This document shows positions 28,445 to 32,847 of a stretch of DNA of 64,000 bases, one piece after another; the stretch's first letter is position 1, and every line of letters begins with the position of its first letter. Origin of the DNA: Alphaproteobacteria bacterium. GTDB taxonomy: Bacteria; Pseudomonadota; Alphaproteobacteria; Sphingomonadales; Kordiimonadaceae. The notes under the pieces were generated by a model that ran no database searches, was not told where the DNA came from, and was given only the letters and a program-made list of their open reading frames with translations. The position numbers were made by a program, and so were the translations under genes. The stretch covers positions 1-64,000 of the forward strand of contig JAJFIU010000048.1 in the NCBI GenBank assembly GCA_021774695.1, in the 5' to 3' direction.

Positions 28445-28658
28445 GCAATTTCACCCTTCTGTTGCTAGTGCCTAATTCTGAATTTCATATCGGGATTGTC
28501 AATGCTCCAGCTGGCCTGTGGGACCAGCAATTATTGGCGTGTGCTCAACATAAGTAACCATGTATGATAAACAGTCAGCAACGGGCATTTGGCCAACTGT
28601 TCTTAAATATTGATTAACCCCTAACCACTACAAACAACGTGTGGGGCTGGAGATAGGC

Positions 28659-30206
28659 ATGCAAATTAATATCCGCCGTTGCCGAACGTATATTCTGTGG
28701 GTTTTGGTGGCGTTATCGGTTGCTGTAAATGCGTCTGCTGCGCCTGTCAAAACCCGCGTGCTATATTTTTCTTCTTTCCCCGAAATTATGCAACCAGAAG
28801 GCAAGCCTGGACTCGCCGAACTTGCGACCGCCATACACCTGGAGACTGCAAAAAACCCCAACACTTTTTTCGTCCACGGCGGGGCATCGCTGGGGCCATC
28901 TGTTTTTGGTGCGATGGACAACGGCGCCCATATGGTTGACATACTCAACGCGCTCAACCCTAGTGTGATGGCGATCGGAAAACGTGAATTCTCCTACGGC
29001 TATGATAATTTTATCCTTAATGCCCTGTCTGCTTCGTTTCCGCTGGTAACCAGCAACCTGACGGATGCCCAGTCAAACGGACCTATTGACGCCACTTATC
29101 CAACATACTTGATGCAAGCCGGTGACTTATCAATCGGCGTCATCGCCCTCACGTCCGCCAATGCAATCGTCGAGTACGGCTCCACGCAGGCGAAATTTTC
29201 AGACCCCGACACCGCCGCCACAGACGCTGCCCGCCAATTGCGGTTGGAGGGTGCCGACACCGTCATACTCTTGGCCGACACGGATTATGATGATTTGAGC
29301 GGCCTGCGCGCGGACGGCACTGTTGACGTTATTTTCTACACTCACAATTTTGACAACCCGCAGTCGCTTGACCGCCAGGGTAATTTGCTAACCGAAGGCG
29401 CGATGGACGGCATGATAATCGCGGTAGATTTTTGGTTTGAGGATGGCGCTGACGGCCTGCCTAATTTAATAACGAGCGTCGAATTGCTGCCCCTGTCCAA
29501 GTTTGAGCCAGACCCACTTGTTGCTGAGATAATCGGCGACTACCAACAACGATTGGAACAACTGCTTGGCCCTGGAATCGCAACAGTAACCAAGTCTTTT
29601 GACACGCTTCGCAGTAATATTCGCAGCAGGGAAAATGCTTTTGCCAACTTGATAGTCGATGCCTTGCGAGAGCAGGTATCTGCCGATATCGCGTTGCTTA
29701 ACGGCGGCACTATCCGGGGCAATGTTGAATATCCCTTTGGCCATAAAATCAGTCGCGGCGACATTCAGCGCGAGCTACCCTTCGGCGGCCGTACCGCAAT
29801 GGTGCGTATGAGCGGTGCTGACATCCGGCAAACACTGGAACACGGCGTCGACTGCGGCCTGCGCGTCGATGGCTGTTTTACCCATGTGGGAAACCTCAAG
29901 GTCACCTTAGACAGCCGCAAGTCCAAAGGTGATCGAATAATCAGTATATCAGTCGGCGGTGAGCCGGTAGAGCCCGACACATATTACCGGGTTGCGACCA
30001 GCGACTTTATGGCGCGGGGCAATGATGGCTTTGAGCATTTGGGCAAAGCGGAAAAAATATTCGACGCAGGCACCAACCGGGTAATATGGAATGTGGTTGT
30101 CGAATATATTATGCGTTCGGGCGAGGTGGCTCCAACCTTGGAAGGGCGAATTCAAGATATCGCCCCCCAAAATAAAGCGCCTGAAAACGGGGTGAGCAAT
30201 GAATAG
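28659..30206 (+). CDS. Exported UshA/5'-nucleotidase-like protein with degenerate metal site
   Basis: The ATG at 28659 has GGAG six bases upstream and gives a signal peptide cleaved near residue 27 (ILWVLVALSVAVNASA). The 515-residue layout is that of UshA. The C-terminal substrate-binding domain is well kept: RSRENAFANLIVDALREQ, IALLNGGTIRGN, RGDIQRELPFGG and MVRMSGADIRQTLE. The N-terminal metallophosphatase motifs are not: D-x-H becomes FSSF (37-40), the G-D motif becomes HGGAS (73-77), GNHE becomes GKRE (107-110), and only one histidine remains in YTHN (227-230). It is therefore probably a non-catalytic binding protein. Its stop overlaps the start of a hybrid kinase by eight bases. Confidence 0.85.
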   Translation: MQINIRRCRTYILWVLVALSVAVNASAAPVKTRVLYFSSFPEIMQPEGKPGLAELATAIHLETAKNPNTFFVHGGASLGPSVFGAMDNGAHMVDILNALNPSVMAIGKREFSYGYDNFILNALSASFPLVTSNLTDAQSNGPIDATYPTYLMQAGDLSIGVIALTSANAIVEYGSTQAKFSDPDTAATDAARQLRLEGADTVILLADTDYDDLSGLRADGTVDVIFYTHNFDNPQSLDRQGNLLTEGAMDGMIIAVDFWFEDGADGLPNLITSVELLPLSKFEPDPLVAEIIGDYQQRLEQLLGPGIATVTKSFDTLRSNIRSRENAFANLIVDALREQVSADIALLNGGTIRGNVEYPFGHKISRGDIQRELPFGGRTAMVRMSGADIRQTLEHGVDCGLRVDGCFTHVGNLKVTLDSRKSKGDRIISISVGGEPVEPDTYYRVATSDFMARGNDGFEHLGKAEKIFDAGTNRVIWNVVVEYIMRSGEVAPTLEGRIQDIAPQNKAPENGVSNE

Positions 30207-32847
30207 TCCTGCGTCAAAAACGAGGAAAGCCCACTTTGGTCTTGGCTTTAAGATCAAAGTGGTTGTTGTGGCGCTAGTGGCGTTAATGGTCACGGTTGCG
30301 GGGCTGTCTTATTATACCCTGCAACAATTCAGCGACCAGATTACTGACTATTCGAATCAAACCCTGCCGGCACTGGCAGCGTCGATTGACCTCAAAACAT
30401 CGCTTGAAAAAATAGTTCAAAACACTGAACAGTTGGTCAACAGCGACGTGCAAGCCAAAAGGCGTATTGCCTTTACGGCAACACAGGATTCGGTTGCCGG
30501 GATCAACAACCTGCTTGCGTCACGCGAGACACTTATAGATTTGGAAGAAATCCGAACAGTTCTCGCCATTTTGTCCGAAACAACAAGCGACCTGAATAGG
30601 CTGATCGAAAATAAAATCAATATTATCAACCATCTCGATGGCCTGGACCGCGAGCTAGGTGCCTGGATTATAAGTGAGTTATCCCTCAAACAACAAAACG
30701 CCTTGCCGGACCAAAGTGCAGCCTATGCTGATTGGCTTATTCTGGAGCGCAAGCTGATCAGCCAAGTAGCCGATTTGTCCACCAGCAATGACGCGCGTAC
30801 CCAGCAAAGGCAAATCCCAAATATTATTCGCGCTTTGCGCGCCTTGTCCGCAAAGGCCAACGTCCTTCCGCCACAGGCCAAGGAAGTTGCAAGCAGGCAA
30901 ATCGCGAGTTTGGGTGCAAAACTGAACGGTGAAGACGGTGTTATTTTAACCCTGCGAGACTTGACCCGTGCCGACGCCCGCGCCAATGCGCTGGAGCGGC
31001 AAATGCGGGTTCTAGTTTCAGAGCTATTGAGGAAAACCGACAACCTCGCCACCCAAAAAAGCGATGAAGCGCAAGCCACAGCGCAGAATTTAGTGCGCCA
31101 AAGCCAGCAACAACTGGTAGCTCTGGTTATCAGTGTAGCGGTTGCGCTTGCTATTGCAATTGCTGGCTTTTTCTTTATCGAAAGAAGGGTGGTAGCGCGA
31201 CTTATTTCCTTGCGTGATGTTGTCATTGGCCGCGCAGCCGGCGGCCAGCACTCGGTACAGGTTGGCGGCAGCGATGAAGTTACTGAAATCGGGAATGCTG
31301 TGCAGGTCTTCATCGACGAAATTGATGTCCGGCAAAAGCAGATTATTAACAGCGCCGAACAAACCAACGCAATTATACGGCTGTCGCCGCAGGCAATGTG
31401 TATTGCCGCAGGGTCGGAAATTCTGTACCACAATGACGCCTTCGAATTAATGTGGCCGGGTGCAGGTTCGCCAGATAGCCACACGTCAATTTTGGCACTA
31501 TTCCCCCCCATGCTCCTCAGCGACTCTGGTCCCACCGGGGTTCGCTCAGTAGCTCGCCATGCAATCATCGATAAGTACAATAGTGTGCGCTGGTTCAATA
31601 TGACGAGCAATAGCGTTGAATGGCACGGTGCCAAAGCCCGTCAGTTGATCGCTGTTGACACCACCAAACAAGTGCAGGTTGAACATACGCTGGAGGAAGC
31701 GCGGCGCAAAGCAGAGACCGCCGCTCAGACGAAATCCAACTTCCTTGCCATGATGAGCCACGAGATAAGGTCACCCATGAACGGCATTATTTCCGTCGGC
31801 GAAATGTTGGAAAAAAGTGATTTGGACACCGAGCAAAACCAGCTGGTTTCCATTATTAATCAATCCGCTGAAACACTGTTAACAATCCTCGACGATGTCC
31901 TTGACCTGTCCAAAATCGAAGCTGGCAAGCTTCAGATTAACAACCATCATTTTGATCTCCGCGCCATATTGGAGGGAATTGCCAACCTGCTTAAACAGGG
32001 CTTCCAGCAGAAAAATGTAACTTTCAAGGTTGATCTATCTGATGACTTGCCGCAATTCGTTATTGGCGATTCTAACCGGATTCGCCAAATCATGTATAAT
32101 TTGATCAGTAATGCACTGAAATTTACTGAAAACGGTTCGGTTCAATTGATTGCCTCACGAGAAAAAACGTCTGGCGACCGCGGCTGTACCGTTCGAATTG
32201 CGGTTAAGGACACCGGGATTGGTATCAACCCAAAAATAATGAACCGCCTATTTCAACCTTTTGAACAAGCCGATAGTTCGGTTGCGCGCCAATACGGCGG
32301 AACCGGCCTGGGGCTAACAATATGCCGCCGGTTGGCAAGCATAATGGGCGGCGAAATCACCGTTAACAGCACCGAGGGCCGCGGCTCAACTTTCGCTCTC
32401 ATGGTACCTTTAAAGATCGCCGACGACGACGCGTTAGAGCCCGCGCAGCCCCCCAAAGCGCCGTCAGCGCGCCTCGCCAACAAAGACGCTCACATACTAG
32501 TGGTAGAAGACAATAAGATTAACCAATTGGTTATAGGTAAGATATTGAAATCATTAGGGTATAAGTGGGATACGGCTAATGACGGCGTCGATGCTATGGA
32601 GATATTCAATCCAGATATTCACACCCTTGTTTTAACCGATTTACGTATGCCGCGCATGGATGGGTTTACCTTGGCTTCCAACATCCGCGCAATGGACGGC
32701 CACGGCGCAGACGTGCCAATCATTGCACTCTCGGCTGATGCGATGGAAGAAACAAAAGAGAAAAGCGAACAGTCTGGCATTAACGTGTTTTTGACCAAAC
32801 CTGTGAAGATTGACGAAGTACAGAAATGTCTTCAGTCATTTACCTAA
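30199..32847 (+). CDS. TorS-like membrane hybrid sensor histidine kinase
   Basis: The 882-residue protein has membrane helices at about 18-40 and 304-327, with a ~260-residue helical periplasmic sensor between them like that of TorS. A HAMP region (about 328-380) and a PAS-like segment (about 385-490) follow. HisKA has SHEIRSPMNG (H521). HATPase has DTGIGIN and GGTGLGLTICRR. The receiver (about 765-882) has D814 (VLTDLRMP) and K in LTKPV. It lacks an HPt. The start ATG lies inside the end of the UshA-like gene (ATGAATAG), so the two are translationally coupled and probably form a binding-protein/kinase pair. Confidence 0.94.
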   Translation: MNSPASKTRKAHFGLGFKIKVVVVALVALMVTVAGLSYYTLQQFSDQITDYSNQTLPALAASIDLKTSLEKIVQNTEQLVNSDVQAKRRIAFTATQDSVAGINNLLASRETLIDLEEIRTVLAILSETTSDLNRLIENKINIINHLDGLDRELGAWIISELSLKQQNALPDQSAAYADWLILERKLISQVADLSTSNDARTQQRQIPNIIRALRALSAKANVLPPQAKEVASRQIASLGAKLNGEDGVILTLRDLTRADARANALERQMRVLVSELLRKTDNLATQKSDEAQATAQNLVRQSQQQLVALVISVAVALAIAIAGFFFIERRVVARLISLRDVVIGRAAGGQHSVQVGGSDEVTEIGNAVQVFIDEIDVRQKQIINSAEQTNAIIRLSPQAMCIAAGSEILYHNDAFELMWPGAGSPDSHTSILALFPPMLLSDSGPTGVRSVARHAIIDKYNSVRWFNMTSNSVEWHGAKARQLIAVDTTKQVQVEHTLEEARRKAETAAQTKSNFLAMMSHEIRSPMNGIISVGEMLEKSDLDTEQNQLVSIINQSAETLLTILDDVLDLSKIEAGKLQINNHHFDLRAILEGIANLLKQGFQQKNVTFKVDLSDDLPQFVIGDSNRIRQIMYNLISNALKFTENGSVQLIASREKTSGDRGCTVRIAVKDTGIGINPKIMNRLFQPFEQADSSVARQYGGTGLGLTICRRLASIMGGEITVNSTEGRGSTFALMVPLKIADDDALEPAQPPKAPSARLANKDAHILVVEDNKINQLVIGKILKSLGYKWDTANDGVDAMEIFNPDIHTLVLTDLRMPRMDGFTLASNIRAMDGHGADVPIIALSADAMEETKEKSEQSGINVFLTKPVKIDEVQKCLQSFT

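Follow-up and report, generated by a model that had tools for sequence, protein, structure and literature searches.

The window analysed here, a stretch of 64,000 nucleotides from an alphaproteobacterium of the family Kordiimonadaceae (assembly GCA_021774695.1, contig JAJFIU010000048.1, positions 1 to 64,000 of the forward strand), carries a gene for a degenerate 5'-nucleotidase (28,659-30,206, 515 amino acids) that runs into the gene of a hybrid sensor histidine kinase (30,199-32,847, 882 amino acids). Both genes lie on the + strand, as do all features given below, and were identified from open reading frames and Pfam matches, together with a structure model for the former and NCBIfam for the latter. 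According to alignments with its relatives, the first protein, a pseudo-5'-nucleotidase with the UshA/CD73 fold and a candidate periplasmic co-receptor, has lost the metal site while the letters of the nucleotide pocket are kept. The pseudo-nucleotidase and a sensor protein form a conserved cassette, and profile comparisons indicate that one homologous sensor serves two outputs, a kinase and a diguanylate cyclase. We consider it probable that the dead nucleotidase has taken the role of a binding protein and reports extracellular nucleoside or nucleotide via a TorS-type sensor to interchangeable outputs. The initial annotation of this locus had proposed a dead nucleotidase and a kinase as a sensory pair; the pairing and the loss of the metal site support this proposal, which turned out to be half of the picture, as cyclases are paired in the same way.

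Loss of the metal site and retention of the nucleotide pocket

The active site of the pseudo-nucleotidase was referred to canonical relatives and, for most positions, to CD73; the D-x-H columns, before the start of the CD73 alignment, were referred to the relatives alone. Catalytic roles are given as known for UshA and CD73. In the window protein, the former D-x-H metal motif is now S39-F40-P41 (28,773-28,781; Asp to Ser, His to Pro), the Asp of the GD ligand motif is A76 (28,884-28,886), the Asn and the catalytic His of GNHE are K108-R109 (28,980-28,985), and the catalytic Asp is S112. Further downstream, the first metal His is D207 (29,277-29,279), the second is kept as H229, and the third ligand is F231. 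The motifs FSSF, HGGAS and GKRE, quoted in the initial annotation for the loss of most metal ligands, are exact, and one of the seven active-site letters scored is left. By this reading, the window protein lacks the two-metal site with catalytic His and Asp of an active 5'-nucleotidase.

The seven columns were scored on 61 usable degenerate sequences and 31 canonical ones, the latter from 31 of the 60 canonical loci described below; identical rows were merged, and one empty row (L295) among the 62 in the residue alignment was left out. None of the seven letters was kept in 15 degenerate sequences, one in 45 and two in a single sequence, while the canonical sequences kept six (12 sequences) or all seven (19 sequences). 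Two of the columns, the Asn and the His of GNHE, are not independent of this grouping because they were also used to sort the loci; the other five are independent. The His column of D-x-H is a weak criterion because merely 4 of the 31 canonical relatives have His there. At the Asn column of GNHE the degenerate sequences have Lys (57 of 61), Asn (3) or Gln (1), and at the His column Arg (57 of 61), Lys (3) or Gln (1); the column of D207 holds Ser or Asp in 55 of 61. An intact alternative metal site, which the initial annotation had raised as a possibility, was also looked for, and no conserved ligand set was found in the 61 degenerate sequences at the columns examined.

The pocket of the C-terminal domain presents the opposite pattern. 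Eight letters were scored, R322, E325, N348, R353, F/Y375, D456, F/Y458 and R497, with Phe and Tyr counted as one, and the window protein has all eight. They are complete in 57 of the 61 degenerate sequences and in 31 of 31 canonical ones, and the remaining four degenerate sequences have seven. Among them, R322, N348, R353, F375 and F458 are presumably the positions that hold base and ribose in CD73 and UshA.

The gene has an alternative GTG start at 28,641. Residues 1-28 (28,659-28,742) were read by eye as a probable Sec signal peptide, with an RR pair, a hydrophobic stretch and an A-S-A site, and residues 4-23 are a helix in the model; the protein is probably exported to the periplasm. The sole Pfam domain is 5_nucleotid_C (PF02872; residues 308-461, 29,580-30,041; E 1.8e-34, 119.6 bits against a cut-off of 23.6), which bears out the earlier statement that the C-terminal substrate-binding domain is kept; of the pocket letters, R322, N348, R353, F375, D456 and F458 lie within it. 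In the same scan, no metallophosphatase domain was found at E 0.1 and no solute-binding protein (SBP) family was matched, while the N-terminal half still aligns with the phosphatase half of 5'-nucleotidases. The AlphaFold2 model (mean predicted local distance difference test score, pLDDT, 90.1; predicted template-modelling score, pTM, 0.83) has the two-domain 5'-nucleotidase fold. By Foldseek (E about 1e-38), the PDB entries nearest to it are 3ive and 3ivd, in which a putative 5'-nucleotidase is seen together with cytidine or uridine; CD73 comes next, with template-modelling scores of 0.71 for 3ivd and about 0.7 for closed CD73 forms. C399 and C406 (C-x6-C), which likely form a disulfide, are invariant in 19 of 19 alphaproteobacterial pseudo-nucleotidases and absent in the homologue of genome G478.

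Decay of an enzyme gene to a pseudogene was considered and rejected. The ratios of nonsynonymous to synonymous substitution rates (dN/dS) for the two closest pairs of relatives were 0.037 and 0.104, which indicates purifying selection, and the reading frame is open to the end in 19 of 19 loci; the TAA in the match of genome G036 is the terminal stop because frame and match end on the same base. The kinases of the same two pairs gave 0.053 and 0.122, while synonymous sites were almost saturated in a third pair and saturated in a fourth. The window genome has two further nucleotidases with GNHE intact, so the dead copy is not its sole nucleotidase.

Pairing with a sensor protein across genomes

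In a set of 147 genomes, consisting of the window genome and its relatives, the pseudo-nucleotidase was matched in 38, and 19 of these matches were full-length (E 6.1e-82 or better, against E 4.8e-24 for the best of the others). The kinase sensor region was matched in 30 of the 147, with 19 long matches at E 2.7e-12 or better and 11 short ones at 7.9e-7 or worse. Both sets of 19 genomes were identical, and the kinase gene came next on the same strand in all 19. The holders comprise 14 genomes of the window's genus, four of its family and one of another family. Within the genus, both genes were present in 14 of 19 genomes and neither in five, two of which are 76-80% complete. No third gene was common to all 19 loci, some of which are short contigs, and the next most widespread gene occurred in eight; the neighbouring genes at these loci gave no hint of a ligand or a response regulator.

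A broader sample was obtained by a contig scan with one genome per species, in which the best 80 of 515 confirmed relatives were sorted by the GNHE column into 20 degenerate and 60 canonical nucleotidases. Directly downstream of all 20 degenerate genes there was a gene for a sensor-bearing kinase (6 loci) or a GGDEF protein (14 loci). Such a downstream partner, sought among proteins matched by the kinase-core, GGDEF and sensor profiles, was present in 0 of the 60 canonical loci, 53 of which have at least 1.5 kb of downstream DNA. Two canonical loci (L127 and L149) have a kinase gene elsewhere and one (L156) a GGDEF gene, none in the downstream position. Chance adjacency was rejected on the basis of this count. 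Four of the 20 degenerate loci (L084, L085, L087 and L095) also belong to the 19 genomes above.

The family f45, which was taken as Alteromonadaceae in the GTDB sense, was represented by 196 genomes. The sensor was found in 37 of them and the pseudo-nucleotidase in the same 37 (E 1e-154 or better; next 2.9e-42), and in all 37 the two genes adjoin and share a strand. The suggestion that they might never be adjacent in homologues, made in the initial annotation as a possible objection, is thus refuted in the 19 relatives, the 37 genomes of f45 and the 20 degenerate loci among the best 80 of 515. The GNHE region was read in 30 of the 37 nucleotidases, with one row empty and one misread, and the 28 clear motifs were KRE (23), KRD (2), NRE (1), QRE (1) and KKD (1). 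Four f45 proteins had intermediate scores (G951, G878, G919 and G979; E 2.9e-42 to 2.2e-37), and the two of them that were examined, G951 and G878, retain GNHE and lack a GGDEF neighbour within 11-12 kb. Loci L298 and L299, from genus g505 of f45, encode lipoprotein-like 5'-nucleotidases of intermediate similarity which keep GNHE and have no GGDEF partner.

One sensor with two outputs

The 14 degenerate loci with a cyclase come from Rheinheimera (4), Alteromonas (4), Paraglaciecola (3), Glaciecola, Marisediminitalea and one further member of the Alteromonadaceae. Their partners are membrane proteins of 532-575 amino acids with a C-terminal GGDEF domain, assigned by Pfam on one of them, and all 14 have GGEEF and an upstream RxxD. 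The profiles of the kinase sensors and the cyclase sensors matched each other by hhalign with a probability of 99.9 and E 5e-33 over 329 columns, the whole sensor length. Furthermore, the hidden Markov model of the kinase sensor matched all 14 cyclases at E 1.1e-20 or better in a set of 14 sequences.

The sensor itself is, as modelled, of the TorS-like fold. The AlphaFold2 model of kinase residues 1-380 is all-helical (pLDDT 82.5, pTM 0.59). The top five Foldseek rows were TorS sensor structures, some of them complexed with TorT (E 2.2e-4 to 6.1e-4), and five TorS entries also came first in VIA-align with Z 16.6-18.8, the best being 3i9y (Z 18.8, root-mean-square deviation 3.1 over 224 residues). 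The range matched to TorS corresponds to about residues 57-290 (30,367-31,068), an all-helical sensor domain that is probably periplasmic. In a sequence search of the PDB, the sensor profile gave chance-level matches and the sensor region alone gave none.

Relatives of the sensor were sought by profile in 398 phylum-wide and 385 class-wide genomes. Seven genomes scored best for the sensor (E <1e-60), and a pseudo-nucleotidase gene adjoins in 7 of 7; the motif of the G478 nucleotidase is KKD where others have KRE. Of 20 strong-match stretches examined, four were nucleotidase pairs (L222 and L239-L241) and 16 were others (L223-L238). A gene for a solute-binding-type protein stands beside the sensor gene in 10 of these 16 distant relatives, belonging to SBP_bac_3 (8, of which 4 were below the Pfam cut-off), Peripla_BP_6 (1) and Phosphonate-bd (1); it is transcribed oppositely in two of the ten (L230 and L235), and some gaps are several hundred bases long. 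Because of these neighbours, the place beside the sensor is often that of a binding protein, and here it is filled by the pseudo-nucleotidase. The cassette has the gene of a probably periplasmic protein beside that of a receptor whose sensor family takes binding proteins, as in SBP-activated receptors. The ten loci (L223, L225, L226, L229-L233, L235 and L237) encode alphaproteobacterial kinases, and the neighbourhoods of L229, L231 and L233 are largely alike.

Gene overlap and organisation of the kinase

The stop codon of the pseudo-nucleotidase (TAG, 30,204-30,206) and the start codon of the kinase (ATG, 30,199-30,201) lie in an overlap of eight bases (30,199-30,206), exactly as annotated before. 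In the 19 alphaproteobacterial loci, the offset from start to stop ranges from -44 to +38 bases with starts chosen mechanically, and an overlap of four bases is possible in 9 of the 14 cyclase loci.

The window kinase has a HisKA domain (31,732-31,926) with the H-box SHEIRSPMN, a HATPase_c domain (32,065-32,415) and a receiver domain (32,494-32,829) with VLTDLRMPRMDG, all assigned by Pfam with motif reading for the first and the last. Matches to 4HB_MCP_1 and PAS were weak and below the cut-off, and no HPt domain was found by Pfam. The kinase core matched TorS (TIGR02956) best in NCBIfam, yet at 402.7 bits against a cut-off of 676.5; together with the modelled sensor fold, this agrees with the earlier description of the kinase as TorS-like. 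Among the kinase variants are hybrids without HPt, as in the window, and hybrids with HPt (L044 and L046), and the kinase of L099, from an Azospirillum metagenome-assembled genome (MAG), has a HATPase domain and no receiver match. In G015 (L034:8967-11099; G015:C92), the closest relative by nucleotidase identity, the kinase frame breaks off at 711 amino acids, its tail is altered and a second kinase-like segment comes after it, which may reflect an assembly error or a broken gene.

Origin of the cassette

Two quick trees were calculated without bootstraps. The nucleotidase tree (63 rows) included 31 of the 60 canonical loci and omitted repeats and the near-copies G010, G014, G016, L089, L091 and L093. 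It placed the 32 degenerate rows on one side of a branch supported at 100 by the Shimodaira-Hasegawa-like approximate likelihood ratio test (SH-aLRT), with the gammaproteobacterial ones as a group inside. From the sensor tree (47 rows), S_L228 and S_L235, whose span was too long, the near-copies G010, G016, L089, L091 and L093, and repeated genomes were omitted; in it, a branch with support 100 separates the 33 sensors that accompany pseudo-nucleotidases from the rest, and some outgroup branches are long. This grouping is compatible with a single origin. We infer the direction of change, since neither tree fixes the root, and the most parsimonious history starts with a kinase as partner and needs a single loss of catalysis and a single switch of output from kinase to cyclase. 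L099 and L222 (from the Azospirillum MAG and from G566, respectively) have a divergent pseudo-nucleotidase in which the Asn is kept and Arg stands for His (LNREF), with a kinase downstream of it, and they form branches apart from the other degenerate rows.

Proposed mechanism and alternative explanations

In the mechanism we favour, the first protein would be exported to the periplasm, where it would no longer hold the two metals or catalyse a reaction and would keep the pocket for base, ribose and phosphate. Because this pocket is retained, a nucleotide or nucleoside is the expected ligand. The conserved Lys108-Arg109 pair would supply positive charge at the former metal site and may hold the phosphate. 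Once the cleft had taken up a nucleoside or nucleotide from outside the cell, the two domains would close, a movement known from UshA, and the closed protein would either dock on the helical domain that the sensor exposes in the periplasm, much as TorT docks on TorS, or be released from it. The change would then be relayed across the membrane and HAMP to the output, altering the activity of a histidine kinase in Kordiimonas and relatives and in Azospirillum, or of a diguanylate cyclase in the Alteromonadaceae and Rheinheimera. In this scheme we infer the periplasmic location, the ligand, the docking, the direction of the signal and the role of Lys-Arg.

Several points weigh against it. Linkage in genomes is no proof of physical contact, genomes within one family are not independent of each other, and the E-value thresholds behind the 19/19 and 37/37 counts were fixed after the score gap had been seen. 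Single metal ligands survive in some degenerate rows (the Asp of D-x-H in 22, the Asp of GD in 9, the second His in 13 and the Asn of GNHE in 3), and the pocket could persist because the fold needs it or because it takes some other ligand that is nucleotide-like in part. For the sensor fold, McpZ, McpS and PilJ reach Z 14.4-16.4 against the model, with McpZ (16.4) level with the lowest-scoring TorS entry (16.6), and helical bundles unrelated to these reach Z about 12-13; such folds match easily, and the pTM of the sensor model is 0.59. The Pfam family TorS_sensor_domain (PF21689) gave no match to the window kinase at E 0.1, and in the cyclase partner of L090 it scores 17.7 bits with a cut-off of 27. 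Among the distant sensor relatives, no SBP match was found in the three further neighbours scanned (L224, L228 and L238), the scan having covered 13 of the 16 loci (all except L227, L234 and L236).

The alternatives differ in what they make of the two proteins. A co-receptor for another ligand, such as a nucleotide sugar, NAD or some other compound that carries phosphate or sulfate, or a ligand-free scaffold that reports the state of the envelope, would be paired in the same way, as all the pairing evidence is blind to the ligand; UshA relatives such as NadN and SoxB also have varied substrates. However, an unrelated ligand would not require that all eight pocket letters be retained in 57 of 61 sequences and seven in the other four, and we regard this explanation as rather unlikely. 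Continued enzymatic function, with an altered metal site or in another reaction, and with a kinase that senses the product or regulates the enzyme, is improbable. S39, D207 and H229 are indeed still polar or acidic, and the first-position Asp persists in many gammaproteobacterial members (included in the 22 rows above), but 57 of 61 sequences have Lys for the Asn, as many have Arg for the catalytic His, no other ligand set is conserved at the examined columns, and at most two of seven catalytic letters remain in any sequence.

The least probable explanation, in our view, is that adjacency reflects operon housekeeping kept by lineage, without functional contact. Gene order is commonly shared among related genomes, and the non-independence of the counts within families would fit such a case. 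It would leave unexplained that no other gene is kept beside the pair across the 19 loci, that the two genes are present or absent jointly even within the genus (14 with both and 5 with neither, including the two genomes that are 76-80% complete), and that the pair recurs in another class with the same sensor and a different output domain.

Relation to known systems and significance

LuxP-LuxQ and NspS-MbaA are SBP-activated receptors, and CpxP, YfiR and RcsF are examples of periplasmic partners of receptors that are not SBPs; to our knowledge, no periplasmic regulator of kinases or cyclases, these three included, is a dead nucleotidase. Like TorT-TorS (PDB 3o1h, 3o1i and 3o1j), the cassette combines a helical sensor domain, a hybrid kinase core and a periplasmic partner encoded adjacent to it. 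TorT is a type-I binding protein, whereas the partner here is a dead 5'-nucleotidase, adjacent in 19 of 19 loci; unlike TorS, the window kinase falls under the TIGR02956 cut-off and showed no HPt match, and a diguanylate cyclase can take the place of the kinase behind the same receptor. SBP-activated receptors, as described in PMC9602780, share with it a free periplasmic protein that delivers the signal to the sensor of a kinase or of an enzyme of cyclic di-GMP (c-di-GMP), but their partner is a Venus-flytrap SBP and not a protein with the two-domain phosphatase fold; the word 'nucleotidase' has 0 occurrences in PMC9602780. The 5'-nucleotidases UshA, CD73 and E. coli c4898 have the same fold, C-terminal substrate domain and pocket residues, whereas the metal and catalytic residues of the window protein are mostly gone, with a conserved Lys-Arg for Asn-His.

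It has been reported for dCache_1PUR sensors (PMC11245519) that extracellular purines are sensed by the receptor's own dCache domain, with several outputs including second-messenger turnover. The feeding of purine sensing into several types of output would be alike here, while the ligand would bind a separate exported pseudo-enzyme; 'nucleotidase' has no occurrence in PMC11245519. In the literature consulted, the co-receptors are SBPs. No dead nucleotidase acting as co-receptor of a kinase or cyclase was described in the titles and abstract beginnings of the literature searched, to which subscription journals contributed little. SBP-activated kinases and c-di-GMP enzymes and purine sensing by dCache domains are already known, and the dead nucleotidase as partner would be new; we file the cassette under the SBP-receptor kind, neither as TorS nor as a 5'-nucleotidase.

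There is about an even chance, in our judgement, that the cassette represents a new class of co-receptor. In it, a CD73/UshA-type ecto-nucleotidase would have been turned once into a trap that captures nucleotides without cutting them, with Lys-Arg replacing the metal site, and would have taken the binding-protein place of a TorS-type sensor. The resulting two-gene cassette would have spread through Alpha- and Gammaproteobacteria, coupled to a kinase in one group and to c-di-GMP synthesis in the other, and would provide bacteria with an equivalent of purinergic sensing in which the extracellular protein is free. Since the lost and the retained residues can be read from 61 sequences, the idea is directly testable by a few point mutants. 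If true, it would establish a new class of receptor and illustrate clearly how an enzyme can become a sensor, here one that has persisted in two bacterial classes with two outputs. The cassette would also offer a possible means by which marine bacteria perceive nucleotides or nucleosides outside the cell, for example from lysed cells or extracellular DNA, and may tie this perception to c-di-GMP.

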